Assembly: GCA_004298675.1 (NCBI GenBank)
Contig: SCRI01000082.1
Location: 1 to 64,000, forward strand
Direction: 5' to 3'
From: a bacterium
GTDB taxonomy: Bacteria; Vulcanimicrobiota; Vulcanimicrobiia; Vulcanimicrobiales; SCRA01
DNA length: 64,000 nucleotides
Shown: piece after piece, positions 4,542 to 63,416 of the stretch
Layout: every line of letters starts with the position of its first letter
Numbering within the stretch: position 1 is the stretch's first letter
The notes under the pieces: generated by a model
Seen by the model: the letters and a program-made list of their open reading frames with translations, nothing else
Told to the model about the DNA's origin: nothing
The model's database searches: none
Position numbers and translations under genes: made by a program

Positions 4542-5671
4542 AACGACGCGCCGACCTCCAGCGCGAGACGGAACTGCGACGCCTGCGTCCCCGCCGCTCC
4601 GAAGCCGATCCCCGGCGTCAGATGGCTGACGTCTACCGCGGAGGCCTCCGCGCGGGCGAAGGCGTGGCCCAGCCGGTAGGTAGGCGTGAGCGTGTAGCTC
4701 CACGCACTGCTGCCGGGGCCGTAACCGATGAGGTCCGCATTCGCGCTGGTGTCGGTGGTGCCGCTGGCATTCTTGACGTACTCCACGCGCGCCCCTAACG
4801 ACCAGGTGCCGTTCAACGCATAGGACCCCAAGAGCGAGCCGCCCGTGGCATGCTCGTCGGCGCTATAGCCCAGCGCTGCGTTCGCCGGGGAGTCGACGAA
4901 GAGCAGATACGGGCTCAACGACCAGCGCCCAGCGGTCGTCGTCAGCATCACGTTGTACTCGCGCTTGTTGGCGACCCCCGCCGTGACGTTACCGGGCGTC
5001 CCGGCCTGCGGCACGATGACGGCCAGGGCCACGCTGGTGGCGGAGCTGGTATTGTAGCCGATCATCCCTTCCTGCGCCCAGTGCGTACCGGAGTAGTAGC
5101 CGTCGTTCAGCTCATACGCGGCGATCAGCTTCCCCTGACTGTAGGTTGCGCGCACACCGCGGCTGATGAGCGGCTCCATGTTCCAAAGCAACCCACGCTG
5201 CACGTTGACGTTCTGGTAGGTGAAGACTCCCTCCGAACCCAGCAGCGTCGCTTGCTGGCCTACGCTGACGACCAAACTCGACGTCGGCGCATAGCCGACG
5301 TACGCCAGTGGAAACGGCGTAAAGAGGTTGGTGTTGGCGCCTTTCTGGAGCGTGGGATTACCCGCGAAGCCGACCACGGGAAAGTCGTAGATCCCCGCGG
5401 TCAAGCCGAAACGCACCGGGCCGCTGCCCTTCGACACGGTCAAGAGCGCATTGGTGACGTTGCCGCGCGCCGCTTCGTCTTGGCCGCTTACGGTATCGAA
5501 GCTGCCAACGGCGTTGACGCCGCCGCCCGTCGTGACGATGCTCGCAGCACTGAAGGCGCCGTTGACCGTCACGCCGGCAGCGTTGTCGTCGGCGACTGCC
5601 GGTGCAGCCGCGCAGACAAGCACGGCTGCGACGCCGAGCACGGTGAGGTATCTCATCGATGACTTGGGCAT
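4538..5671 (-). CDS. Outer-membrane beta-barrel porin-like protein
   Basis: About 377 residues. An N-terminal Sec signal peptide (MRYLTVLGVAAVLVCAAAP, cleavage near AVA-DD) is followed by alternating hydrophobic/polar stretches rich in Gly, Thr, Ser and Tyr, as in amphipathic beta strands, and the protein ends in Phe (GASF), the classic C-terminal signature of outer-membrane barrels. The ATG at 5671 has AAAGG 6 bases upstream; an ATG two codons earlier (5677) is possible but too close to that site. It lies 22 bases downstream of the molybdoenzyme gene on the same strand and may provide substrate passage for that periplasmic system. Specific substrate unknown. Confidence 0.75.
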   Translation of the reverse strand: MPKSSMRYLTVLGVAAVLVCAAAPAVADDNAAGVTVNGAFSAASIVTTGGGVNAVGSFDTVSGQDEAARGNVTNALLTVSKGSGPVRFGLTAGIYDFPVVGFAGNPTLQKGANTNLFTPFPLAYVGYAPTSSLVVSVGQQATLLGSEGVFTYQNVNVQRGLLWNMEPLISRGVRATYSQGKLIAAYELNDGYYSGTHWAQEGMIGYNTSSATSVALAVIVPQAGTPGNVTAGVANKREYNVMLTTTAGRWSLSPYLLFVDSPANAALGYSADEHATGGSLLGSYALNGTWSLGARVEYVKNASGTTDTSANADLIGYGPGSSAWSYTLTPTYRLGHAFARAEASAVDVSHLTPGIGFGAAGTQASQFRLALEVGASF

Positions 5672-5693
5672 CTGCATCCTTTCGTGTGTCCTT

Positions 5694-8156
5694 TCAGGCT
5701 CTGCGGTTCGAAATAGCGGGCGGATCGAAGGCCGTGACCGGTGGCAGCGCCTGCTCGTACTTCTTCACCTCCACCAGCGTGGTATTGGCGATGTTGGCTT
5801 GCGCGAGTTGCGAGCTCCCTTTGTCAAGCGTCAGCACGTTGACGAGGCCATGCTTGCAGAGCGACCCGTCCCTCTCGGGGACCTCAGGGTCGTACCAGGC
5901 ACCTTCGTGCAGGACCACCACGCCACGGCGCACGCGGTCCGTCACAAGCGCCCCAGCCAGCACCTCACCGCGCTCGTTGAACACGCGCACCACGTCGCCG
6001 TTGGCGATGCCGCGTTCGCGCGCGTCGTCGACGTTGAGCCACATCGGCTCACGCTCGTTTACCTCGTACCACTCCCGGATCCACGTGTTGCCGAGTTGCG
6101 AGTGCAGGCGATAGCGCGGATGCGGCGAGAGCAGATGGAGCGGGTACTGCTTGGCTCGAGCAGAACCCAGCCACTCTACGGGCTCCAGCCACGTGGCATG
6201 CGGCGGGCAATCGTCGTAATGGTAGCCCTCGATGATCTTGGAGTAGAGCTCGATCCGCCCCGAGGGCGTACCAAGCGGATGGAGCGCGGGATTTTCACGG
6301 AAATCCGCATGACTCGTGTAGCCCTTAGCCGCCTCCGGCACCGGAAACGCCACGCGTCCCTGCTCCCAGAACGCATCGAATGCCGGCATCTCGATCTTCA
6401 TCCCAGCCGCCTGCTTCAAGGTGGTGGCATAGAACGAGCGGATCCAATCCATCTCGCTCTTCCCCTCGGTGAACGCGTGCTCGAATCCAAGGCGCTTGGC
6501 AACACCGGTGAGGATGTCGATATCGTTACGTGACTCGAAGAGCGGCTCGATCACCTTGCGCATCGCGACGATGTACTCGTGCGAGTAGGCTCCGCAGACC
6601 TCGATGTCGTTCCGTTCGAACGTGGTGGTGGCAGGGAGCACGATGTCGGCGAACTTTGCTGTCGCCGTCCAGAACGGGTCCTGCACGATGATCGTCTCGG
6701 GCCGCCGCCAGGCCTCGACGACTTTGTTCGTCTGCCACAGGTGCGTCAGCGGATTGCCCCCTGCCCAGTAGATCAGATGGACGTCTGGATAGGTGATGAT
6801 CGTCCCGTTATACGCTACGTGTTGACCCGGATGGAGCAGCATCTCCGCCACGCGCTCGAATGGGAGCACGCTTTTGACCGGGTTTTCGCCGGCGGAGATA
6901 CCGGCAACGTCGGGAGCGGCCGCTGTCGGACTGCCGCCATTGTCATAGTGATAGCTGACGCCGAAGCCGCCGCCAGGCAATCCGATCTGGCCAAGCAGCG
7001 AAGCCAGCGTGACGAGCATCCAGTACGGTTGCTCGCCGTGGTCGGCGCGCTGGACGGCGTAGCCCGACATGAGCATGCTGCGGCTCTGTGCCATCCGTCT
7101 GGCGAGATCGCGAATCACGTTCGCGTCGAGGCCCGTGACGGCGGCGGCCCACGCCGGAGATTTCGGAACGCCGTCGCTCTTGCCGGTCAGGTACGCCGCG
7201 ATCCGATCGAAGCCAACCGTGTATTTCTCGATGAACTGCTTGTCGTAGCGCCCCTCGTCGTAAAGCACGTGCGCCATGCCCAGCATCAAGGCCGTGTCCG
7301 TGTTCGGACGCGGCGCCACCCACTGCGCGCCGAGGTAGACGGCCGTATCCGTCCGGCGCGGATCGATCGCGATGACTCGCGCCCGGCCCGCGCGCACTTT
7401 CTCACGGAAGCGCTCGATTGCGCCGTAGGCGTAGTGGTCCGCCGGATGCGTACCGATTTGATTGTCTTTGAGCGGGTCCACGCCCCAGAGGACCAGCAGC
7501 TCCGTGTGTTCCTGGATCACGGGCCAAGCGGTCTGCTGGTCGTACACTTCCAAGTCGCCAAGAATGTGCGGCAGAATGACCATCGCCGCCGCGATGCTGG
7601 GGTCTCCGGTACAGTCGGTGAAACCTCCGAAGAGTCCCAGCATGCGTCTGACCAGCGCCGACGCGCTGTGCAGCAGCCCCGCCGACTGCCAGTCGGCGGA
7701 GCCGGGGAAGATGCTGGCATTACCGTGCGCCGCGCGAACGCGTTTGAGCTCGCCGGCCACCAGATCGAGGGCCTCGTCCCAGCCGACGCGCACGAACTCC
7801 TCACGGCCGCGTCCCTCGCCGCCCGCGGCTGCCCCGCTTTTCAGAAAGCTCTTACGTACGGAGGGATACTGGACGCGACTCTTCGCATAGACGCTATCGG
7901 CGAAGGCCTCGATCATCGCCGTGGGATGGGCATCGCCGGAGAAGGGTGCCGCCCGGACGAAGCGCCCGCCTTGAACGGTGGCCTCCACCATCCCCCAGTG
8001 CGTGGCGGTCGGAGTCGTTGTACCGATCAGCGGATTCCCGCCCGGCGCGGCGGGCAGCACGGCGCGAGCGAGATCGGGATGGAGCAACAGGCCTCCGCCC
8101 AGCGCAGCTCCGCCGGCGATAAGCGCACGGCGCGAGAGCGGTCTGCGAACATTCAC
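5694..8156 (-). CDS. TMAO/DMSO/biotin-sulfoxide reductase-type molybdoenzyme, catalytic subunit
   Basis: About 820 residues, molybdopterin oxidoreductase family. The N-terminus carries a Tat signal (PLSRRALIAGG followed by a hydrophobic stretch ending LARA), so it acts in the periplasm. No N-terminal [4Fe-4S] cysteine motif is present and the segment FPGSADWQSAG aligns with the Mo-ligand serine region of DMSO/TMAO reductases (Ser about 158 from this start). Later motifs include TDCTGDPS, YWAGGNP and TTTFERNDIEVCG. GTG at 8156 was preferred over an upstream ATG (8198) because AAAGGTGAGG ends 6 bases before it. The cytochrome gene upstream overlaps the 8198 start and presumably supplies electrons. 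S- or N-oxide as acceptor is likely but not proven; arsenite- or other oxidoreductase activity is less likely. Confidence 0.87.
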   Translation of the reverse strand: MNVRRPLSRRALIAGGAALGGGLLLHPDLARAVLPAAPGGNPLIGTTTPTATHWGMVEATVQGGRFVRAAPFSGDAHPTAMIEAFADSVYAKSRVQYPSVRKSFLKSGAAAGGEGRGREEFVRVGWDEALDLVAGELKRVRAAHGNASIFPGSADWQSAGLLHSASALVRRMLGLFGGFTDCTGDPSIAAAMVILPHILGDLEVYDQQTAWPVIQEHTELLVLWGVDPLKDNQIGTHPADHYAYGAIERFREKVRAGRARVIAIDPRRTDTAVYLGAQWVAPRPNTDTALMLGMAHVLYDEGRYDKQFIEKYTVGFDRIAAYLTGKSDGVPKSPAWAAAVTGLDANVIRDLARRMAQSRSMLMSGYAVQRADHGEQPYWMLVTLASLLGQIGLPGGGFGVSYHYDNGGSPTAAAPDVAGISAGENPVKSVLPFERVAEMLLHPGQHVAYNGTIITYPDVHLIYWAGGNPLTHLWQTNKVVEAWRRPETIIVQDPFWTATAKFADIVLPATTTFERNDIEVCGAYSHEYIVAMRKVIEPLFESRNDIDILTGVAKRLGFEHAFTEGKSEMDWIRSFYATTLKQAAGMKIEMPAFDAFWEQGRVAFPVPEAAKGYTSHADFRENPALHPLGTPSGRIELYSKIIEGYHYDDCPPHATWLEPVEWLGSARAKQYPLHLLSPHPRYRLHSQLGNTWIREWYEVNEREPMWLNVDDARERGIANGDVVRVFNERGEVLAGALVTDRVRRGVVVLHEGAWYDPEVPERDGSLCKHGLVNVLTLDKGSSQLAQANIANTTLVEVKKYEQALPPVTAFDPPAISNRRA

Positions 8157-9522: not shown

Positions 9523-10596
9523 ATGTCAATCGAACATGACAACCGGACGAGCGCCCAGCATCTAGCCCGTCCGACATTGATCGACGTTGCAAGAGCGGCC
9601 GGTGTATCGATCGCCACGGTTTCCTACGCCCTCAACGGACGCCCGGGAGTGGGTGCGGAGACGCGGCGGCGCGTGTTGGAGCTGGCGGCGGCACTCGGAT
9701 TCCGTCCGAATCGTTTGGCGCGCGGATTGCGCTCGGGGCGCGCGCACGTCTTGGGGCTCTTGATCTCGGACGTGGCAAACCCCACCTATACGGAGATCGC
9801 CTCAGCGGTCGTCAACGAGGCCGCCGCGATCGGTTACCACGTCTTTCTCAGCCACGAAGGCGTGCACGGCGAGCTCAAACGCCAACAGGCCGAGGCGCTC
9901 TTGGACCAGCGTTGTGCGGGGCTCATCTTCACCTCCGTCGTCGAAGGCGACCGTCCGTTGCTCGCGCGGATCCGCGCGAGCGGCGTCCCGGTGGTCCAAG
10001 TAATCCGAAAGATCGACGGCGTAGGCGCGGACTTCATCGGTACGGACGAAGAGGCTGCCGGATACCGCGCGGCCGCGCACCTGCTCGCGCTCGGGCACCG
10101 GTGCATCGCGATGGCGGCCGGACCCCGCGTCTCGTCGGCCAGCCGTCTACGCGCCGCCGGCGTGCGCAGGGCCCTTGCCGCAGCAGGCTTGGCGATTCCC
10201 GCGCCTTGGTACAGCGAAGGCGATCTCAACGTGGAGTCCGGCTATGCTCTGTGCGCGCAGATGCTCTCGCAAGGCCCGCCGCCGACCGCGCTCGTATGCG
10301 GAAACGACGTGATGGCGCTGGGTTCGATGGATGCGATCATCGATGCAGGCTTGCGCATACCGGGCGATGTCGCGGTGGTCGGCTTCGACGACATGGCACT
10401 GGCATCGTCGCGCCTGATCGAGCTGACGACGGTACGCTCGCCGCACGCTGAGATTGGCAGGCGCGCGGTGCAGCGTCTACTCGAGCGTATCGAACGCCCC
10501 GAGCTGCCCGCGCGCGAGATCCTGCTGGAGGAACACTTGATCGTGCGCAGGTCCAGCGGCGGCCAGCGCGCTGCGGCGCAGGCTGCGATCGGTTAA
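9523..10596 (+). CDS. LacI/GalR-family transcriptional regulator
   Basis: A 357-residue regulator. Residues about 17-65 form the LacI-type helix-turn-helix and hinge (TLIDVARAAGVSIATVSYALNG, then RPNRLARGLRSGRAH), followed by a periplasmic-binding-protein-like effector domain (LGLLISDVANPTYTEIA, CGNDVMALGSMDAI, VAVVGFDDMALASS). It runs convergently with the KDPGal aldolase gene, overlapping by 4 bases, and is the nearest regulator for the sugar-acid cluster 10593-12815. The effector is therefore probably a sugar acid or its phosphorylated intermediate; this is inference from position. Confidence 0.9.
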   Translation: MSIEHDNRTSAQHLARPTLIDVARAAGVSIATVSYALNGRPGVGAETRRRVLELAAALGFRPNRLARGLRSGRAHVLGLLISDVANPTYTEIASAVVNEAAAIGYHVFLSHEGVHGELKRQQAEALLDQRCAGLIFTSVVEGDRPLLARIRASGVPVVQVIRKIDGVGADFIGTDEEAAGYRAAAHLLALGHRCIAMAAGPRVSSASRLRAAGVRRALAAAGLAIPAPWYSEGDLNVESGYALCAQMLSQGPPPTALVCGNDVMALGSMDAIIDAGLRIPGDVAVVGFDDMALASSRLIELTTVRSPHAEIGRRAVQRLLERIERPELPAREILLEEHLIVRRSSGGQRAAAQAAIG

Positions 10597-11234
10597 CGGC
10601 TGGACGCCGTGCGCGCCTGCCGCACGGCGGAGACGAAGCGCTGCGCGCGCCGGGAGACCTCCACCGCGCCGATGCCGGGACGAAACAACGCGGAGCCGAT
10701 GCCAAAGCCCGCGGCACCCGCTGCCAGCCAGGCCTCCACCGCCTCCGGGACGATGCCGCCGACCGGAAGGACGTCACTATGCGCAGGCAAGACTGCCAGC
10801 AGCGCGCGCAAGACCGCGGGCGTGAACGCCTCAGCGGGAAAGAGCTTGAGCGCGTCCGCACCGGCAGCAAGCATGCAAAACGCCTCGGTCGGCGTCGCGC
10901 AGCCGGGAACGGCGATCAGCCCACGCGCCTTGGCCTCCTTTACCACTGCCGCAGCGGCGTGCGGCATGACGATCACCTTACCTCCGGCTTCCGCCACCCG
11001 TGCGACGTCGCCCGGATCGAGCACGGTTCCGGCGCCGACGAGCACCCTCTCCCCGTAGCGTTGGGCCAGGCGTTCGATGCTTTCGAACGGACGCGGAGAG
11101 TTGAGTGGAATCTCGATCACCACAATCCCCGCGTCGACGATGGCGTCGGTGAGCGCCTCGACCTCGGTGGGCGTGACGCCGCGCAAGATCGCGATCAGCG
11201 GCGAGGCCTTCAGCCAAGCGCGCAAGTCCTTCAA
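10593..11234 (-). CDS. dgoA: 2-dehydro-3-deoxy-6-phosphogalactonate (KDPGal/KDPG) aldolase
   Basis: A 213-residue class I aldolase. Key residues are visible: the strand ILRGVTP (15-22), Glu41 in VIEIPLNSP, VGAGTVLD (66-73), and the Schiff-base Lys130 in ALKLFPAE, then VGGI and GIGSALF phosphate-binding loops. It cleaves 2-keto-3-deoxy-6-phosphogalactonate to pyruvate and glyceraldehyde 3-phosphate. Start is TTG at 11234, with GGAGG 8 bases upstream; this TTG overlaps the TGA of the kinase gene (TTGA), implying translational coupling. Pairing with the kinase favours the galactonate branch (DgoA) over KDPG aldolase of the Entner-Doudoroff pathway. Confidence 0.9.
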   Translation of the reverse strand: MKDLRAWLKASPLIAILRGVTPTEVEALTDAIVDAGIVVIEIPLNSPRPFESIERLAQRYGERVLVGAGTVLDPGDVARVAEAGGKVIVMPHAAAAVVKEAKARGLIAVPGCATPTEAFCMLAAGADALKLFPAEAFTPAVLRALLAVLPAHSDVLPVGGIVPEAVEAWLAAGAAGFGIGSALFRPGIGAVEVSRRAQRFVSAVRQARTASSR

Positions 11235-12118
11235 TGACCACCCTCCCGCAACAGCGCGAGGATCGCCGCGCAGCCGCGCGTCAGCGCGCGCACGGGATCC
11301 GGAAGCGTGTATTCGACACCCGCCAACGCCAGTGCGCGAGCATACAATGCGGCTAGCCGTTCGGATGCGAGCACCGTCACGTGCCCAGCCGGCGCCGCAT
11401 CCCGCAACTCGTGGCCGATGAGGAGGCCGGAGAGATACGATGCGGCCGCGGCACTGGGCAGCTCGCCGAAGAGCGCCCGCGTTCTCACCCCGAAGAGGTC
11501 GTGCAGGAGCGCGCCTCCCGCTCGCGCACGTCGAACGCCGTCGGCGAACGCCGCGTCGTCGGTGCCGTCGAGCCGATCCATCGTCTTGGCGAGGATACTG
11601 TGGCGGCACAGCACGTCGAACAGCTCGCCGGTCATGAAGGTACGAAACGAGACGATTTGCTGCCCGGCAACCATCGCAAATTTCGTGTGCGTGCCCGGTA
11701 GACAATAGACGCCGTCCCCGCCCGCATCCAGCGCTCCGAGAATCTGAATCTCTTCGCCGCGCATGACGTCGAGGACGCCGGCCGCATCGCGACAGCACAC
11801 GCCCGGGAGGATGAGGCCGGAGGTTGCCGCGTTCACACGCAGGCGCTGGGCGCCGGCCGCGATCTCGGCTAGGCCGGCGGGGCTTGGAACGTAAGGGACC
11901 TCGACCCAGCCTTGGCGGCTGCCGACCATCCCGCACATGACCACGGGACCCGCACCGTCTGCGAGCCAGTCCGCGACGTGCTCGTCGAGCACGCTTGCAA
12001 AACGCCCCGGCGCTACAGCCAGGATTCCCAGCGGCGCCGTGCGCACATCCACGACGCCCCCACCGGCGGCCACACGATAGGCCCGGAAGTTGCTGGTTCC
12101 CCAGTCGACTGCGATCAT
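11231..12118 (-). CDS. dgoK: 2-dehydro-3-deoxygalactonokinase
   Basis: A 295-residue sugar-acid kinase of the ASKHA fold. The N-terminus MIAVDWGTSNFRAYRV is the phosphate-1 motif, followed by MCGMVGSRQGW and the conserved LPGTHTKFAMV and FRTFMTGELFDVL. It phosphorylates 2-keto-3-deoxygalactonate, the substrate step before the downstream-coupled aldolase. The ATG at 12118 was chosen since the conserved motif begins there; the frame extends upstream only through low-quality Arg/Ser-rich sequence. Cytosolic. Together with dgoA it forms the core of galactonate or related sugar-acid catabolism; no dehydratase gene is visible nearby. Confidence 0.92.
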   Translation of the reverse strand: MIAVDWGTSNFRAYRVAAGGGVVDVRTAPLGILAVAPGRFASVLDEHVADWLADGAGPVVMCGMVGSRQGWVEVPYVPSPAGLAEIAAGAQRLRVNAATSGLILPGVCCRDAAGVLDVMRGEEIQILGALDAGGDGVYCLPGTHTKFAMVAGQQIVSFRTFMTGELFDVLCRHSILAKTMDRLDGTDDAAFADGVRRARAGGALLHDLFGVRTRALFGELPSAAAASYLSGLLIGHELRDAAPAGHVTVLASERLAALYARALALAGVEYTLPDPVRALTRGCAAILALLREGGH

Positions 12119-40079: not shown

Positions 40080-41231
40080 ATGATGAATTCTGTTGGAGCA
40101 TTAGCCGGAATTCGCGTACTCGATCTCACGCGCATTGCGAGCGGGCCTTACGCAACGCTGCTGCTCGCCGATCACGGCGCCGATGTCGTGAAAGTCGAGG
40201 AGCCATCCCGGGGGGACGACACGCGCGCCTTTCCCCCGTACATCGCAGGAGAATCGACGTACTACCTCAGCCTCAATCGCGGCAAGAAGTCGGTAGCACT
40301 TGACCTGAACTCCGCGCGCGGCCAAGCGCTACTCCGTTCCGCCGTCCCGGACTTCGACGTCCTGATCCACAACTATCGGCCGGCCTATGTGGAACGGGCG
40401 CGCCTGGGATACGAAGAGCTTGCGGCCATCAATCCCCGGCTCATCTACTGCACGATTACGGGTTTCGGAACCAGTGGCCCCAAGGCGGACAAACCCGCGT
40501 ACGATCTGTTCGTGGCGGGGATTGCAGGCTTGATGAGTGTGACCGGGGAGCCGGACGGGCCGCCCCAGAGACCCGGGGTAAACCTCATCGACCATCTTGC
40601 CGGTGTCAACGCGGCCTTCGGCATCCTGCTCGCGCTAAAGGCCAGAGAGCGAACGGGACGCGGTCAACGCGTCGAGGTCTCGCTGCTCGACTCGCTCCTT
40701 TCCTGCTCCGGCTATCTCGTTGCGGCGGCGGCCGCGAACGGCAAGGCGCCGCGACCGACCAGTCACAACCAACACGCACAGATCGTGCCTTACGGGACGT
40801 TTCGCACGGCCGATGGCTACATCAACATCGGCGTGCTCAACGACAAAGTATGGCAACCTTTCTGCCACGCGCTGTCGCGCGACGATCTCTCCGCAGATCC
40901 GCGCTTTCAAACCAATGCCCTACGCGTCGAGCACAAGAGCGCGCTACTCGATCTCATCCGCCCCGTACTCCTGACCCGAGCCTCGGGTGAATGGCTCGAG
41001 TCGTTCGAAGCGGTGGGCATTCCGTGTGGCCCGATCAACTCATTTGCCGAGGTCCTTACCGATCCTCAGGTCATTCACAATAGCTTGCTTGTCGAGATGC
41101 AGCACCCAGCATATGGCTCGGTCACGGTCGTCCGCTCGCCCGTGCTGTTGAGTGAGACGCCCGCAAGCGTCTCGCTGGCGCCTCCGATTCTAGGCGAGCA
41201 CCCGATTAGCACGTTGAGGAGGCTGGCATGA
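40080..41231 (+). CDS. CaiB/BaiF-family CoA-transferase
   Basis: A 383-residue class III CoA-transferase. N-terminal LAGIRVLDLTRIASGPYATLLLADHGADVVKVEEP, RNKKSVALDL-like segment (NRGKKSVALDLNSARGQALL), the catalytic Asp in KPAYDLFVAGIAG and YCTITGFGTSGP. It transfers CoA from an acyl-CoA to a free acid. AGGA is upstream of two consecutive ATG codons. First gene of the plus-strand operon with the TDGLP and UGSC genes; presumably activates the acid imported by the TRAP system. Confidence 0.92.
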   Translation: MMNSVGALAGIRVLDLTRIASGPYATLLLADHGADVVKVEEPSRGDDTRAFPPYIAGESTYYLSLNRGKKSVALDLNSARGQALLRSAVPDFDVLIHNYRPAYVERARLGYEELAAINPRLIYCTITGFGTSGPKADKPAYDLFVAGIAGLMSVTGEPDGPPQRPGVNLIDHLAGVNAAFGILLALKARERTGRGQRVEVSLLDSLLSCSGYLVAAAAANGKAPRPTSHNQHAQIVPYGTFRTADGYINIGVLNDKVWQPFCHALSRDDLSADPRFQTNALRVEHKSALLDLIRPVLLTRASGEWLESFEAVGIPCGPINSFAEVLTDPQVIHNSLLVEMQHPAYGSVTVVRSPVLLSETPASVSLAPPILGEHPISTLRRLA

Positions 41232-42283
41232 TTGGCTCTCAAACGTCGCGCGAAGCGATCGAGATGATTGAACTGATGTATCAAGCAGGCTGGACGGACG
41301 GTTTACCGGTCGTTCCGCCGCTACCGGAACTCGTCGATGCCTTCGTGAGGTACGTCGACCGTTCTCCGGACGACCTGGTTGGCTATATCCCGCCCCTCGG
41401 CGGCAAGGCAACCATGGCGAAGGTCGCCGCGAACGCGGTGATGGCGGGATGCCGGCCGGAATACATGCCCGTAATCCTGACCGCCATCGATGCCATGCTG
41501 GACGACAAATTCAACCTCGGCGGAATGCAGTGCTCGACGCATCTTTCAACTCCCCTCTTGATCATCAATGGCCCCATCCGAAAGGAACTCGACATCAATT
41601 GCGGGGCCAACGTGTTCGGGCAGGGCTGGCGCGCCAACGCCACGATCGGGCGGGCCGTCAAGCTCGTCCTGGTGAACATCGGCGGTGCGATTCCGGGCGT
41701 CACGGATAAAGCCACGCTCGGCCACCCGGGGAAGTACACCTACTGCATCGGGGAGAACGAAGAGGAATCCCCGTGGGAGCCTCTGCACGTCGAGCGCGGA
41801 TTCAGTCCGGCAGACAGCACGGTCACCGTCTACGGCAGCGAGGCACCCCATAACATCAACAATCAGATGGTCGACAACCCGTTCGATCTGCTTACGACGA
41901 TCGGCAGCATGATGTCCAATCTCGGATCGAATCACCCATATCTCATGGGCGAGAGTTTCGTCGCGCTGTGTCCGGAGCACGCGAGTGTATGTGCCGCGAA
42001 TCGTTTTCGGAAAGTCGACGTTCAGCAGTTCTTGTTTGACAACGCGCGCAACGAACATCGCCGCCTCAAGGCTGGTGGAATTTACGGCGCGGACACGGCG
42101 AAGTATAACACCTGGCCGCATTGGATCGACCGGCAGCGGGACGATGTCATGGTCCCGGTCTGCCGGCGTGCCAGCGATATCTCGGTGATCGTAACCGGCG
42201 GGCCGGGGCGACACTCGGCCTACCTTCCGGGCTGGTCCTCTCGCTCGGCAACGCGAAAAATCGAACTAGCGAGGAGCAAGTAG
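41228..42283 (+). CDS. TDGLP-family protein (partner of UGSC selenoprotein)
   Basis: A 351-residue protein I do not recognise by name. Conserved features shared with the genes at 60434-61666 and with residues 220 onward of 61674-63416: GWTDGLPVVPP (21-31), ANAVMAGCRPEYMP (68-81) with an invariant Cys75, INGPI, and GWRANATIGRAVKL (133-146). No signal peptide is apparent, so it is probably cytosolic. It overlaps the CoA-transferase gene by 4 bases and is followed 2 bases after its stop by the UGSC selenoprotein. The constant pairing and the fusion at 61674-63416 indicate that it works with the UGSC protein, likely as the substrate-binding or catalytic partner; this is inference. Confidence 0.75.
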   Translation: MIGSQTSREAIEMIELMYQAGWTDGLPVVPPLPELVDAFVRYVDRSPDDLVGYIPPLGGKATMAKVAANAVMAGCRPEYMPVILTAIDAMLDDKFNLGGMQCSTHLSTPLLIINGPIRKELDINCGANVFGQGWRANATIGRAVKLVLVNIGGAIPGVTDKATLGHPGKYTYCIGENEEESPWEPLHVERGFSPADSTVTVYGSEAPHNINNQMVDNPFDLLTTIGSMMSNLGSNHPYLMGESFVALCPEHASVCAANRFRKVDVQQFLFDNARNEHRRLKAGGIYGADTAKYNTWPHWIDRQRDDVMVPVCRRASDISVIVTGGPGRHSAYLPGWSSRSATRKIELARSK

Positions 42284-42285
42284 AC

Positions 42286-43158
42286 GTGCAGACAGTAACT
42301 TCGACCAATGACGACCGCAAAGCCCTGGCCGCGAAGCGGCTGGCAGAGCTAGGCCTCGTTGATCCAGTGGACCATTCCTCAACGACTCTGGCTGCGGCTC
42401 AGCGCTTGGAGTCGCTCGCGGGTAAGCGCCCCGGACTGCTTGACAATCGCAAGGGGAATGGTGACCGCCTACTCGAGCGCATCGGTCAGCTGCTTGTCGA
42501 TCGGTATGGAACGCTGGAGCCGTACCGGACGACGAAGTTCATCTATGCCCGCCGAGCCGACGAGAAGATCCTCGAGGATCTGGCGGCAAGGTGTGACTTC
42601 GTCGTCACCGCGGTCGGTGATTGAGGGTCTTGCGTGTCGTGCAGTGTGCACGACGGCATCGAGTTGGAGACGCGTGGAATTCCTTCCGTGGCGATTCATA
42701 CGTCGGCCTTCCTCGGATCCGCACGCGCGCATGCGTCGGCGTTCGGGCGACCCGATTACGAACCGGTGATCATGCGGCATCCGATTGCGGGTCTGACCCC
42801 AGACGAGGTCATAGCGCGTGCGGACGAGATCATGCCGACAATCGTCGCGTACCTTCTCGGGCAGGAGATTGACGCTCCGTCTGCGCAGCCGGCAGCCATG
42901 AGCGATGCGGAGGCCGCGATAACGGCGGCACTCAGTGAGCTCCGCAGCGGCTTCAATGCCGACGGCGCCGACCTCGAGGTCGTCACGGCAGGCGCGAGTT
43001 CGGTAACCGTGCGTCTGATAGTGACGCCGGAGACCTGCCTCGACTGCATCGTTCCCAAAAGTGCCCTTCAGCACATCGTGGAGAGCGCGGTACGTAAGGC
43101 GCATCCAACGGTGCAGTCCGTCGAACTGATCGACCCACGTGAGGTGACCATTCAATAA
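42286..43158 (+). CDS. UGSC-family selenoprotein with C-terminal Nfu-like domain
   Basis: A 290-residue protein if the TGA at 42622-42624 is read as selenocysteine (residue 113). The reading frame is the same on both sides: VVTAVGD-Sec-GSCVSCSVHDGIELETRGIP gives Sec113-x-x-Cys116-x-x-Cys119. The UGSC family was described in marine selenoproteome surveys; its Sec motif and following segment resemble GrdB/PrdB-type reductases. The preceding part LDNRKGNGDRLLERI fits UGSC N-termini. Residues about 205-290 form a second domain like NifU/Nfu C-terminal domains with a CxxC (Cys251, Cys254) in TPETCLDCIV. The start is GTG 42286 with GGAG 10 bases upstream; no ATG is in frame. A SECIS hairpin follows the TGA. 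A stop reading would give a 112-residue fragment. Confidence 0.85.
42636..42654 (+). promoter_or_regulatory. Bacterial SECIS-like hairpin (UGSC-Nfu gene)
   Basis: Bases 12-30 after the TGA fold into a perfect 7-bp stem, GTCGTGC paired with GCACGAC, closing a 5-base loop AGTGT. The loop starts 19 bases after TGA and has G at its second position, matching the bacterial SECIS geometry known from E. coli fdhF (loop about 18-23 bases downstream with conserved G). It lies wholly inside the coding sequence. Confidence 0.75.
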
Positions 43159-57965: not shown

Positions 57966-58898
57966 TCAGAGTAACCCGCGCTTCTGCAAGTATTCGGTCG
58001 CAGCGGCAGCGGCTACGGCGCCTTCGCTCAGTGCATTGACGATCAAGCCGCGATAGCCGCGGCGCACGGCACCGGCCGCAAAAACGCCCGGCACGGAAGT
58101 CCGGCCGTCACTATCCGTCTCGACCAGCCCACGAGCATCACGCTGCACGTCCGGCGGGAGAAATTCGACGTTCGGATCTGCGCCGACGAACACGAATACG
58201 CCGCGCACCGGAAGCTCTTGCATGCTACCATCCGCTATGCTGCGCAGGACCACGCCCTCGACGCACTCCTTGCCGAGTACTTGTTCCACTACCGTCTCCC
58301 AGTGGAAAGCAATACGCTCGCATTCAGCGGCTGCCTGCAGGTATCGCCGACGCGCACGCAGCCGCGAGCCACGTACGATCACTGCTACGGAGCGGCAGAT
58401 CTCTCCCAGATGCAGCGCCGCCTGAAGTGCGGCATCGCCACCGCCGACCACTGCAACGTCGGCGTCACGGAAGAGGCCACCATCACACCAGTCGCACTGC
58501 GAAACACCACGGCCGCTCAACTCGCCCTCGCCGGGAACGCCGAGGGCATGTAGACGCCCGCCCGATGCGATGATGACCGCGTGCGCACGGACCATCCGGT
58601 CTTGCGTCGTCACCTCGAACCGCGGTGCCGCAATCTGAACAGCCGTCACGCGTGACTCCACCAGCGTCCCGCCCAGCGTCGCAAATCGCTCCTTCAACGT
58701 CTCCGCGAGCACTGCGCCGGAGACGGAGGTCGGCGCCGGATAACTACCGAGGACGCCTACGTTCGCGACCTGCCCGCCCGGCAGCGGGCTTGGCTCGATG
58801 CAGACGACAGAGGCACCGAGTTCGGCAGCCTCCGCCGCAGCCGCGAGTCCGCAAATGCCGCCACCGATAACGGCGACGTCGCATTCAAGTCCGAGCAT
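57966..58898 (-). CDS. Thioredoxin-reductase-like FAD/NAD(P) flavoprotein
   Basis: A 310-residue pyridine-nucleotide-disulfide oxidoreductase. FAD motif GGGICGLAAAAEA, the redox pair Cys135 and Cys138 in QCDWCDG (canonical TrxR CxxCDG), the NAD(P) motif VAVVGGGDAALQAALHL and the C-terminal GVFAAGAVRRGYRG. Members reduce small redox proteins. It is the last gene of the minus-strand unit headed by the UGSC-TDGLP selenoprotein, overlapping PxpA by 14 bases; the position suggests it supplies electrons to the selenocysteine. Confidence 0.88.
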   Translation of the reverse strand: MLGLECDVAVIGGGICGLAAAAEAAELGASVVCIEPSPLPGGQVANVGVLGSYPAPTSVSGAVLAETLKERFATLGGTLVESRVTAVQIAAPRFEVTTQDRMVRAHAVIIASGGRLHALGVPGEGELSGRGVSQCDWCDGGLFRDADVAVVGGGDAALQAALHLGEICRSVAVIVRGSRLRARRRYLQAAAECERIAFHWETVVEQVLGKECVEGVVLRSIADGSMQELPVRGVFVFVGADPNVEFLPPDVQRDARGLVETDSDGRTSVPGVFAAGAVRRGYRGLIVNALSEGAVAAAAATEYLQKRGLL

Positions 58899-59667
58899 GG
58901 ACTACCTCAGACATCGGAGCGATATGCACGCCGGCGCGCTCCAGCGCGCCACGTAGCTCGATCGCTACCTCGGCCGCACCCGGCGTATCCCCGTGCAGGC
59001 AGATGGTATGCATCGGAATCTCCAGCCACGCTCCGTCGATGGCGCGCACGCGCCCCTCCAGCACCATCGCCACCGCCCGCTTCACCACCCGTGCGTGATC
59101 GGTTATCACCGCACCCGGTTGACGCCGCGACACCAGCGAGCCGTCGCCATTGTATTCGCGGTCGGCGAAGACCTCGTAGGCCACGCGCATCCCCGCCGCC
59201 TCCGCAGCGCGCGCGAATTCCCCGCCGAAGCTGACGATCAATAGGTTGGGATCGAAGTCCTTGACTCCAGCTACGATGGCGTCGGCCAACGCACGATCCG
59301 TCAGCGAAATATTGTTGAGCTGCCCGTGCGGCTTGACGTGCTGCAGCGGGACGCCGAATCGCCGGCAGAAGCCGGCGAGCGCGCCGATTTGGTAAAGCAC
59401 GTCGGTGCGCGCCTCGTCGGGCGTCACGTTGAGGTTACGGCGTCCAAAGCCCACCAGATCCGCGAAGCCCGGGTGTGCTCCGACGCCAACGCCGTGACTC
59501 TTTGCCATCATCACCGTATGCGCCATCACACGCGGGTCGCCACCGTGAAAGCCACATGCCACGTTGGCAGACGAGATCGACGCGAACATGCGCTCATCGT
59601 CGCCCATCTTCCAGGCTCCGTAACTCTCACCCATGTCGCAGTTTAGGTCGATTACCGTTTCGCTCAT
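58885..59667 (-). CDS. pxpA: 5-oxoprolinase subunit A / LamB-YcsF family
   Basis: A 260-residue protein opening with DLNCDMGESYGAWKMGDDERMFASISSANVACGFHGGDP and containing HPGFADLVGFGRR and HVKPHGQLNN, the standard PxpA signature. PxpA with PxpB and PxpC cleaves 5-oxoproline to glutamate using ATP. PxpB follows on the same unit, but PxpC is not found nearby, so the substrate may differ. It overlaps the TrxR-like gene by 14 bases. Confidence 0.9.
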   Translation of the reverse strand: MSETVIDLNCDMGESYGAWKMGDDERMFASISSANVACGFHGGDPRVMAHTVMMAKSHGVGVGAHPGFADLVGFGRRNLNVTPDEARTDVLYQIGALAGFCRRFGVPLQHVKPHGQLNNISLTDRALADAIVAGVKDFDPNLLIVSFGGEFARAAEAAGMRVAYEVFADREYNGDGSLVSRRQPGAVITDHARVVKRAVAMVLEGRVRAIDGAWLEIPMHTICLHGDTPGAAEVAIELRGALERAGVHIAPMSEVVHART

Positions 59668-59676
59668 CGGCTCTCC

Positions 59677-60429
59677 TCACGCGAGCAGTGCGCTACCGGG
59701 CGGCTCGGGCGCAAGCATTTCTTCGCCGGTAGCGAACGCGGCCGCGAGATGCTCGTACTGCTCGCGGCCGATCGGATAGAAGCGGAGCACATCGCCCGGC
59801 GCCCAGAGCACCGGTGGAATACGTTCAAGATTAAACGGTACAACAGGCGTCCGTCCCAGGAGGTGAAAGCCGCCCGGACTCGCCGTTGGGTAGATCGTCA
59901 CCTGATGCCCGCCGAGCGCCACGGACCTAGGCGGCACAGCAACGCGCGGCGAGCCACGCCTAGGCAGGCGCAACGCGTCAGGGAGCATGCCGCAAATCGG
60001 CTGGCCGGGCGCGAAACCCACGGTGAAGATGCGGAAGTCCACTGCGGCGTGGAGGGTAATGACTTCATCCACGGTCAGACCGGTACGCGCGGCAACCTCA
60101 GGCAAGTCTTCCCCCGCGTACCACACCGGGACGCGGAAACGCCGGCCGGCAATCGTCTCATCCCCGCCTTGCATGAGCGCACTCCGCAATGCGGCGAGCA
60201 CGGCGTCGCGCGTTGTCGCAAGCGGATCGAACTCGATCAGGAGTGTATTATAGGAAGGAATCGTTCCCCAGACTCCGGGTAGCGCGCCGTCTGCTAGCAG
60301 CCGCTGTGCCATACGCGTCGCCAGCAGGACGCGCGCGTTCGCGGCAACATCCAGCACTTGGCCAAACTCGATCAGTACGGCGGCATCGCCGACGGGAAGC
60401 GTGTTCGACCACGGCAATGATCGCACCAT
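59677..60429 (-). CDS. pxpB: 5-oxoprolinase subunit B / KipI-family
   Basis: A 250-residue KipI/allophanate-hydrolase-subunit-1 homologue. N-terminal region LPVGDAAVLIEFG, then FTVGFAPGQPICGMLPDALRLPRRGSPRVAVPPRSVALGGHQVTIYPTASPGGFHLLGRTP, typical of PxpB. ATG 60429 begins next to the stop of the TDGLP gene with a nearby AGGA site. Works with PxpA; the normally adjacent PxpC is missing. Confidence 0.88.
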   Translation of the reverse strand: MVRSLPWSNTLPVGDAAVLIEFGQVLDVAANARVLLATRMAQRLLADGALPGVWGTIPSYNTLLIEFDPLATTRDAVLAALRSALMQGGDETIAGRRFRVPVWYAGEDLPEVAARTGLTVDEVITLHAAVDFRIFTVGFAPGQPICGMLPDALRLPRRGSPRVAVPPRSVALGGHQVTIYPTASPGGFHLLGRTPVVPFNLERIPPVLWAPGDVLRFYPIGREQYEHLAAAFATGEEMLAPEPPGSALLA

Positions 60430-60433
60430 GGTC

Positions 60434-61666
60434 CTACGTGGCGACGTCCTGCCGTAGGCGAGACCAATCCCGCGGCAAGGTAATCGGAACCACGATTCGA
60501 CACGGCGGGAACCCCCACGTCGGAAAGTAGACGTGCTGCGGGATCGGTACGTCAGCGCCGGCAACGAAGACGACAATGTCCTCCGCGCACTCGACGATGG
60601 GGATGGGCGCATGAGCGGCCTCGGCCGCAACGACCCACGACGGCAGGCCGTATGTCGGAGCGATCTTTGCACGCACCCACAAACGCTTCCACTCTTGGAT
60701 CGGCATGCGTGCACGTTCGAATAGGTAGCGCGATACGTCGCGCTTACTCCACCCCTGTTCCGCTACTTGCCTAGCCGTCGCCGGGGCAACGAGCACCGTC
60801 ACGTAGCCGCCGTGTAGGATGCTGAAGGCCGAAGCTGCCGATGCCATGACGCTCGCCAGATCGTCGAGTCCGCCCGTGACATTGATGCTGCACTCCGCGC
60901 GCAGCAGCGTGACGGCGCTGCTCTCCGCTGGCAACCCGCTCTCGACATGCAGCGGCTCCCAGGGATTGGCCCGCGTGCGTTCGGCCAGGCAGAGCGTATA
61001 GCGCGCTGGCTGGCCGGTGCCCGCCAACGAGGTGACGGCTGGGAATCCGCCACCAACGTTGTTCATGATCAAACGCACGGCCCGGCCGATCGTTGCGTTG
61101 GCACGCCAGCCGGGACCGAGCGCGCCGGTCCCGGCATTGACGCCTAGTTCCTCGGTCAGCGGACCGCTGACGACCAGCAACGGCGTGACGCTCTCGTCGG
61201 TCGTTTGCACACCGCGGAGGTTGAAGCGTGGATCGAGCAGGCCACGCACCGCCGCCAGCACGATCGGGAAGTAATCCGGCCGGCAGCCCGCCATGACGGC
61301 GTTGACCGCGAGCTTCTCCACGCTGGCTTCGCCGTGCATCGGCTCGAGTTCGCCGATGACGGTCGCCGCGGACTCTGGTGAGTAGCGCAGCGTGTCGCGC
61401 ACACGGGCTACCGTCGGCGGCACGATCGGCAGGCCGTCGGTCCAGCCACGGCGATAAAAGCGCGCGTTGACTGCCGCATCGGCATCCTTGCCGCGCACGC
61501 CCTCCACGCGCTGCAGCACACGGCCACCGCCAGCTGCACGCCCTCCCACGGCGTCCGTCTCGCGCATATGTTCGCTCAGGGCGTCATCGACCCACCCGCC
61601 GCCACGCTGAGCTCCGATAGGGTTGTGGATCCACTGCGTGCCGCCGTTCTCGCGCGGATCGCTCAT
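60434..61666 (-). CDS. TDGLP-family protein, stand-alone
   Basis: A 410-residue protein related to the one at 41228-42283. Shared: GWTDGLPIVPPT (74-85), VNAVMAGCRPDYFP with Cys128, LVVSGPLTEELGVN, GPGWRANATIGRAVRLIMNN. The first 60 residues are an extra Gly/Arg-rich arm (residues 1-66) without recognisable motif. No signal peptide. It starts 8 bases after the selenoprotein stop. Since the upstream gene carries its own TDGLP domain, this may be a heteromeric partner of the UGSC-TDGLP fusion. Function unknown. Confidence 0.75.
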   Translation of the reverse strand: MSDPRENGGTQWIHNPIGAQRGGGWVDDALSEHMRETDAVGGRAAGGGRVLQRVEGVRGKDADAAVNARFYRRGWTDGLPIVPPTVARVRDTLRYSPESAATVIGELEPMHGEASVEKLAVNAVMAGCRPDYFPIVLAAVRGLLDPRFNLRGVQTTDESVTPLLVVSGPLTEELGVNAGTGALGPGWRANATIGRAVRLIMNNVGGGFPAVTSLAGTGQPARYTLCLAERTRANPWEPLHVESGLPAESSAVTLLRAECSINVTGGLDDLASVMASAASAFSILHGGYVTVLVAPATARQVAEQGWSKRDVSRYLFERARMPIQEWKRLWVRAKIAPTYGLPSWVVAAEAAHAPIPIVECAEDIVVFVAGADVPIPQHVYFPTWGFPPCRIVVPITLPRDWSRLRQDVAT

Positions 61667-61673
61667 CTACACG

Positions 61674-63416
61674 CTATGTCGCAAGCGAAGACCGCAGCTT
61701 AGCCGCCCAATCGGTTGGCAGAGCGATCGGCCGCATCGTCGGAAATCCAAGCATGCCATTGTGCGCCAAGAACGTACAGTTTGTCCGCATCGGGTCACCG
61801 CACACGGCGATCACAAAATCCTCGGGGCGAACCACCAGCGGCACCAGCCGCTCGCGATCGCGAGAGGCACCGAAGATCTTGGGTGCCTTCTGCAGCATCG
61901 TCATGTCGTAAAGCGAACGCTTGCCGGGAACCAAGTTCGTCCAATCCGAGATATAGCGCTCGAACTGCCGTGCCGGGATACGTGCGTGCTCGAATAGGTA
62001 GGCCTGTACGTCGGCCTTGGTAAAGCCCGAGCTCGCTATCGCCTTGGCGACGATGGGTGAGAGCACGAGCATGGGCTTGTAAGTACCGGTCGCCATGCCG
62101 ACGGTGAACATCAGCTCCCAACCGGTGTACTTGACGACCGCATCGGCGAGATACGGCAAGCACTCCTCCGCCGAGGAACCGTAGACCGAAACGATGACGT
62201 GCGCGCCCGTGTAGCGCGCAATGCAGACGCCGCTCTCGTCCGCCGGCAGACCCATCTCGGAGCATATGCTTGGCCACCCGATCTCGGCCAACGCATCCTC
62301 GTTTTCCGCCATGACGACACGCCAGGTCCCGCCGAAGGTTGCCTTGTCGTTTTGGAACGGCAGAAATCCGGCGACGTTGCGCAGATAGAGGCGCCAGAAG
62401 CGGCCGATGCTGGTGTTGGCCTGGAAGCCGTCGCGCAGTGCTCCCTGCTCGTAATTGAAGCCAAGATCCTTGATGAGCGGGCCGTTGATAACGATCTGCG
62501 TCTCGGCGCCGGGCGTGTTGCCACTGTGCTCGACGCCGTAAGCCGGGTCGGCCATGGCCTCGACCAGCGCGACCAGGATCGGCATATACTCGGGGCGGCA
62601 GCCGGCCATGACGCCGTTCACCGCGATGTTCCAGATGGTGGCGGCACGGTGATCGGGAGGGATCTCCGCCACGACCTCATCCGGGTCGCGGTCCACGAAG
62701 GCGAGGAAGGTGCCGATGCGCTCCCGCGTCGGCGGCACGATTGGCAGTCCGTCGGTCCAGAGGTTCTCGTAGAAGTAGCGGTGGACCTCATCGATGCTTC
62801 CCTCGAACACCACCTCATGCGGCGCCGGCTCGGTCTTCTGCAGAGCGCCGTCCGTCGTGGTGGTCAAGCAATCGATCAGCCGCGCGAGCGTCACGGCCGA
62901 AATGTTGCGATCCAGTTCCTCAACACTCTGGACGTCGGGATGCCCCGGAACCATCGCGACCCCAAGAGCAGGCATACCCAAGCCCGACGACGTGGCCTCC
63001 GCCTGTCCGAGGAAGCCCTCGCAGACCAGCGTTGCCGTAGGAAATCCGGCTCTCTCGACCGCGGCGCTCACCCGCAGCACGGCGGGTGTGCAGCTCCCTC
63101 AACAGCCTATGCCGGAGACCACTGCATCGACGCCGAGTGCGCGCAGCTTGTCCGGCAAACCGCCAACCACTTCGTGCTCGTTCTCGCCGTGCGTGGAGCC
63201 AAACGTCTCGTGGCCTATGAAACGTATGTCGGGAAATCGGCGTTGCAGCTCGCGCTCGAGCATGGGGAAGATCTCGTCGCCGCGGAACAGATAGTCCCAG
63301 ACGAAGGCGACGGTCTTTCCGGCAAGTGAATCAAGCCGCGGGGCCAGGGGGTGCGACTGCAACGCCCGCTCTCCACGCGGCCAGAAGACGGCATAGGTAC
63401 CGCCGTGCTCTTCCAT
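61674..63416 (-). CDS. UGSC-TDGLP fusion selenoprotein
   Basis: A 580-residue protein if the TGA at 63101-63099 encodes selenocysteine (residue 106). The same frame continues on both sides: VVSGIGC-Sec-GSC-TPAVLRVSAAVERAG, giving Cys105-Sec106-x-x-Cys109. The N-terminal 105 residues (LAGKTVAFVWDYLFRGDEIFPMLERELQRRFP) match UGSC N-domains; from about residue 220 the TDGLP module follows (WTDGLPIVPP 220-229, VMAGCRPEYMP with Cys273, FQANTSIGRFWRLYLRN). ATG 63416 has AGGAGA 6 bases upstream. It is preceded by a strong promoter. Reading the TGA as stop would produce a 105-residue fragment and leave a downstream frame with no credible ribosome site. Function unknown; fused architecture joins two modules that are separate at 41228-43158. 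Confidence 0.85.
63069..63088 (-). promoter_or_regulatory. Bacterial SECIS-like hairpin (UGSC-TDGLP gene)
   Basis: Bases 11-30 after the TGA on the coding strand fold as CACCCGC paired with GCGGGTG, a perfect 7-bp stem with a 6-base loop CGTGCT (loop at bases 18-23). G is the second loop base. The position matches E. coli fdhF and the other SECIS in this window although the stem sequence is different. Confidence 0.75.

Follow-up and report, generated by a model that had tools for sequence, protein, structure and literature searches.

A UGSC-TDGLP fusion, almost certainly a selenoprotein, with a probable remote relationship to PrdB and GrdB

Organisation of the locus

The window analysed here (the whole stretch of DNA, 64,000 nucleotides long) carries UGSC and TDGLP genes at two loci, split in the first and fused in the second (Table 1). 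Positions 63416 to 61674 of the reverse strand form one frame of 580 codons, which starts with an ATG at 63416 and is interrupted solely by the TGA at 63101-63099; the sequence AGGAGA lies shortly 5' of the gene. The default gene caller split it into frames of 105 and 468 amino acids, and the fused product is likely to escape annotation, since gene callers that take TGA only as a stop split such genes. Re-reading of the sequence bore out the original prediction of a single TGA, in its coordinates as well as in its flanking peptides (GIGC-U-GSC). The claim of a true fusion of UGSC and TDGLP modules also held, since the match to PF24696 (UGSC) ran from amino acid 10 to 184 across the TGA, with 94.7 bits against a cutoff of 25, and since a relative of the same genus (G016) had a fused frame of 83% identity with one TGA. 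The score of the fused protein with NF041046 was 46-50 bits against a curated cutoff of 125, which places it outside the curated UGSC core. It shares with the UGSC family the PF24696 match, the U-x-x-C motif and a selenocysteine at the same site, and differs by its extra TDGLP domain of 380 residues.

Table 1. Features of the two UGSC-TDGLP loci of the window
Feature	Position	Strand	Remarks
UGSC-TDGLP fusion selenoprotein	61674..63416	-	580 aa with predicted Sec106
UGSC domain (PF24696)	62865..63389	-	probably a remote homologue of the Sec domain in PrdB/GrdB
In-frame TGA, predicted Sec106 of the U-x-x-C motif	63099..63101	-	Cys109 at 63090-63092
TDGLP domain, aa 201-580	61677..62816	-	invariant Cys273 of MAGC at 62598-62600
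SECIS-like hairpin	63070..63087	-	6-bp stem (ACCCGC/GCGGGT) that starts 11 nt 3' of the UGA; GU-containing loop
Second, separate TDGLP gene (TDGLP2)	60434..61666	-	directly downstream of the fused gene
PxpB-like (CT_C_D) gene	59677..60427	-	start estimated; same run
PxpA-like (LamB/YcsF) gene	58885..59667	-	same run
TrxR-like (thioredoxin-reductase-like) flavoprotein	57966..58898	-	CDWC motif; proposed electron donor
TDGLP gene of the split locus	41228..42283	+	
Separate UGSC selenoprotein of the split locus	42355..43158	+	TGA 42622-42624; NifU-like C-terminus

A second TDGLP gene was also found 3' of the fused gene at L057, L058, L059 and L104, the last three of which had the same order of fused gene, TDGLP2 and TrxR-like gene, and at L063 two TDGLP stretches were followed by a TrxR-like gene. 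TrxR-like flavoprotein genes with a CxxC motif were present in eight loci, mostly of close relatives, and the proteins scanned scored below the TrxR equivalog cutoff. Genes resembling pxpA and pxpB were not seen in the other fused loci examined and are peculiar to the window; pxpC-type genes lie elsewhere in the host genome. Recurrent neighbours of the loci, called by sequence similarity only, included genes of the transporter and organic-acid catabolism types.

The N-terminal stretch of TDGLP2 (61490-61666, reverse strand; WIHNPIGAQRGGGWVDD) resembles the start of UGSC domains and is perhaps the remnant of a lost UGSC core. The C-terminal domain of the split UGSC selenoprotein, which contains CLDC, scored 24.5 bits as a NifU-like domain against a cutoff of 27; similar tails were seen at L010, L020 and L036.

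Partnership and subfamilies of UGSC

All six TDGLP genes and all four UGSC genes found in the host genome were located in shared loci, adjacent or fused, and both gene orders were seen among the split pairs of other loci. The original prediction had reasoned from the fusion that UGSC and TDGLP act together; as every UGSC gene of the genome adjoins a TDGLP sequence or is fused to one, this functional link is supported at the level of gene arrangement.

A division of UGSC proteins into two subfamilies had also been proposed, and it was recovered in a tree of UGSC sequences, in which types A and B were separated with a support of 98/98. The motif columns were kept for this tree, and one row labelled B fell within type A, apparently mislabelled by the motif rule. 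Type B consisted of 63 fused proteins and type A of 45 split and 7 fused proteins, so that fused proteins occur in both subfamilies; these proportions do not reflect prevalence, since the TDGLP query that produced the sample was led by a fused protein. The motifs put forward to tell the subfamilies apart did not stand. Cys105, next to Sec106, was found in only 25 of the 55 fused proteins, and the second cysteine of Sec-x-x-Cys-x-x-Cys, offered as the mark of the other subfamily, is not universal in type A, where many members have a tryptophan. The marks that we retained were UG[STA]CTPAV[LM]R for type B and GDUGSCTS[WC]xxHD for type A. Sec or Cys106, Gly107, Cys109 and Cys273 of MAGC were invariant in the 55 fused proteins.

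One TDGLP relative (L021) has TDKLP and MSGA instead of TDGLP and MAGC, and its genus has a Cys-type UGSC (L025, HCSTCAP); in this genus, the selenocysteine and the MAGC cysteine may have been lost together.

Selenocysteine codon and hairpin

The host genome (3.03 Mb, 98.5% complete) contains a tRNA-Sec (71.7 bits), selA, selB and selD, the last of Sec type with an in-frame TGA of its own, and exactly one in-frame TGA was present in each of its four UGSC genes. A TDGLP profile was searched against the genomes of 84,980 species; the best 79 of 584 relatives were taken as loci and, with near relatives, gave 65 fused frames of usable length. Among these, 55 type-B frames had a TGA at the homologous codon. 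The loci came from Alpha-, Beta- and Gammaproteobacteria, Actinomycetota, Chloroflexota, Acidobacteriota and Bacillota, and single taxon assignments are not to be leaned on, since many of the sources are metagenome bins.

Cysteine-containing forms at the selenocysteine site, which the original prediction had suggested looking for, do exist and were found in Nocardioides sediminis (L106), in one copy of a Lachnospiraceae metagenome-assembled genome (L087) and in a Bacillota one (L135). A selA gene scored over the cutoff in three Sec genomes (L104, L125 and L080) and was present as a fragment in L065; none over the cutoff was found in the two Cys-only genomes tested (L106 and L135). The fused gene lies near selA and selB at L057, and near selA, selB and a TrxR-like gene at L089. 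At the Lachnospiraceae locus (L087), a further fused copy (9851-11617) has a TGA but lacks the SECIS-like hairpin; beside it lie the Cys copy (650-2380) and a copy devoid of both Sec and Cys (about 5217-6890), and a search of that genome yielded no selA.

The stem of the hairpin that follows the UGA barely varies, leaving little covariation to be read from its columns, and tests based upon synonymous codons were chosen for this reason. Within the stem-loop, proline was encoded by CCC in 46 of 51 cases (30% elsewhere in the same genes), leucine by TTG in 30 of 33 (12% elsewhere) and arginine by CGG in 50 of 55 (25% elsewhere); binomial P values for this enrichment overstate the evidence, since the sequences are related. 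When folding was compared with that of random codons for the same peptide, the mean z was -1.34 for 54 type-B Sec forms and -1.91 for the gene of the window, whereas Cys forms gave +0.52, -0.17 and +1.3. The hairpin was gone where the Sec codon is TGC or TGT. Judged by these codon comparisons, the peptide alone does not account for the SECIS-like hairpin. No Rfam SECIS model matched it at an E value of 5. Taken from the sequence, the product of 61674-63416 is almost certainly a fused selenoprotein.

Relatives of the UGSC and TDGLP domains

The PrdB model was matched by 13 of 26 UGSC members (best 4.6e-5) and the GrdB model by 12 of 26 (best 2.4e-5). Comparison of UGSC with a profile of PrdB-like selenoproteins of the same class, made of two sequences only, aligned Sec on Sec, with an E value of 3e-6 and a probability of 88% in one comparison, while the negative control, TDGLP against the same profile, gave no match (E 0.27). 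The scores were 18.1 bits against a PrdB cutoff of 300 and 11.7-14.1 bits with GrdB-type models; since the match is below the family cutoffs, we call UGSC related to PrdB and GrdB and not a member of them. UGSC is very probably a remote homologue of their Sec domain. Three PrdB-like proteins with an in-frame TGA are also encoded in the host genome (G000:C18, C46 and C78; L139 and others).

The TDGLP domain matched neither PF09338 nor any NCBIfam model and shows no detectable relationship to the pyruvoyl partners of the GrdE/PrdA type; nothing credible was obtained from Pfam or NCBIfam with any of 14 members. A PF09338 search of the host genome was empty, and its controls gave no signal either.

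The predicted structure of the fused protein (pLDDT 92, pTM 0.92) places Sec106 between a strand (98-104) and a helix (109-122); TDGLP2 alone was modelled with a pLDDT of 88.5. A PDB sequence search with TDGLP and UGSC gave nothing significant. The best Foldseek match of the fused model, a fumarase (E 5e-4, TM-score about 0.17), was rejected as not a credible relative, and TDGLP alone had no match at an E value of 0.001 or better. Thioredoxin-fold proteins were absent from the 50 best PDB matches listed for the fused model, nearly all of which had low TM-scores. As far as the models go, neither the fused protein nor TDGLP convincingly resembles a solved structure.

Discussion

The UGSC family has been known since the 2008 GOS survey, which counted 255 Sec and 21 Cys forms of UGSC-containing proteins, placed the family among the bacterial selenoprotein families most often met in water samples and mentioned a fusion of UGSC to a domain called Unknown_1 (PMC2398784). 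As in the fusion described here, UGSC is joined there to a domain that is conserved and has a cysteine conserved within it. Unknown_1 is possibly TDGLP or, alternatively, a NifU-like C-terminus such as another UGSC gene has, and the UGSC-TDGLP fusion may for this reason not be new. Reviews up to 2026 list the UGSC family without a function. In the open-access literature, we did not find the link to PrdB and GrdB, the TDGLP partner domain, the TrxR-like neighbour or codon-level evidence for a SECIS. Two points are new: the recurrence of a TrxR-like gene in the operon, and the probable remote homology between UGSC and the PrdB and GrdB Sec domains.

In GrdB and PrdB, a polarised carbon is the presumed target of the selenolate, and a thiol resolves the selenoether (PMC10298544). 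These systems and the fused protein are alike in a Sec domain, probably homologous, with an aligned selenocysteine and in the division of the enzyme into a Sec-bearing part and a part for the substrate. They differ in that the fused protein has its Sec part and its presumed substrate part in one chain and in that its partner, TDGLP, does not match the GrdE and PrdA models. A fluoroacetate system of the PrdB/GrdB superfamily, FarB/FarE, has a partner without pyruvoyl-forming cysteines and, together with the betaine reductase GrdI, provides a precedent for a Sec enzyme with a non-pyruvoyl partner (PMC10838667); FarE and GrdI are homologues of GrdE (PMC10838667), whereas TDGLP shows no detectable relationship to it.

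From these comparisons, we infer the chemistry, the role of Cys273 and the electron route of the fusion enzyme as follows. SelB and the hairpin after UGA106 would insert selenocysteine, and the UGSC half would present Sec106-x-x-Cys109 where a strand ends and a helix starts. The TDGLP half, with its invariant Cys273, would replace the GrdE/PrdA subunit and bind the substrate. The selenolate would attack a small organic acid at a polarised carbon and cleave a C-N or C-X bond. The selenium would be resolved as a selenenylsulfide by Cys109 or Cys273, and the neighbouring TrxR-like flavoprotein would re-reduce it with NAD(P)H. We give an even chance to this mechanism as a whole, that of an NAD(P)H-driven selenoenzyme of reductive cleavage with TDGLP as its non-pyruvoyl substrate subunit. 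Counting against it are the lack of a recognisable fold in TDGLP, the finding of TrxR-like genes in only eight of the loci, the remoteness of the PrdB/GrdB match and the TGA-bearing copy of L087, which has no hairpin and in whose genome selA was not found. We propose more tentatively, at somewhat less than even chances, that UGSC-TDGLP proteins form a third branch of PrdB/GrdB selenoreductases, spread over many bacterial phyla outside the clostridia, where such chemistry has been studied. In this branch TDGLP, a non-pyruvoyl domain with an invariant cysteine, would stand in for GrdE/PrdA, a dedicated TrxR-like protein would be the donor and organic acids would be reductively cleaved.

The UxxC motif could instead be a redox motif of the thioredoxin type, in a thiol/selenol oxidoreductase (a peroxidase or a disulfide reductase) for which TDGLP would be a scaffold or a partner-binding domain. 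Besides the motif itself, the TrxR-like neighbour and the thioredoxin-like fold guessed for UGSC by the authors of the 2008 survey (PMC2398784) are in favour of such an enzyme. We consider it unlikely, as the structural matches listed contain no thioredoxin-fold protein, the homology is to the Sec domains of PrdB and GrdB, and the recurrent neighbours include genes of the transporter and organic-acid catabolism types, by sequence similarity only.

The PxpB-like and PxpA-like genes between TDGLP2 and the TrxR-like gene, and the fact that PrdB is part of a ring-cleaving C-N reductase (PMC10298544), would fit a selenium-dependent enzyme that opens or cleaves the ring of a cyclic nitrogen-containing acid, such as a lactam or a compound like 5-oxoproline, together with the Pxp-like products. 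The other fused loci examined are without pxp genes, however, the genome has its pxpC-type genes at other sites and the weak fold matches to cyclic-amide hydrolases were not significant, which makes this specialised function distinctly improbable. A last reading takes the TGA for a genuine stop or a sequencing error and the halves for two genes, the second starting from the GTG at 63080; it agrees with the frames of default gene calling and was rejected as scarcely credible in view of the TGA kept in 55 fused homologues and replaced by Cys in others, the hairpin and its codon selection, the complete Sec machinery of the genome and the continuity of the UGSC profile across the TGA.

With reductive cleavage by a relative of PrdB and GrdB as the preferred reading, UGSC becomes a testable enzyme system through its probable homology to PrdB and GrdB, its fusion to TDGLP and the associated gene order, and the TrxR-like gene of the operon.
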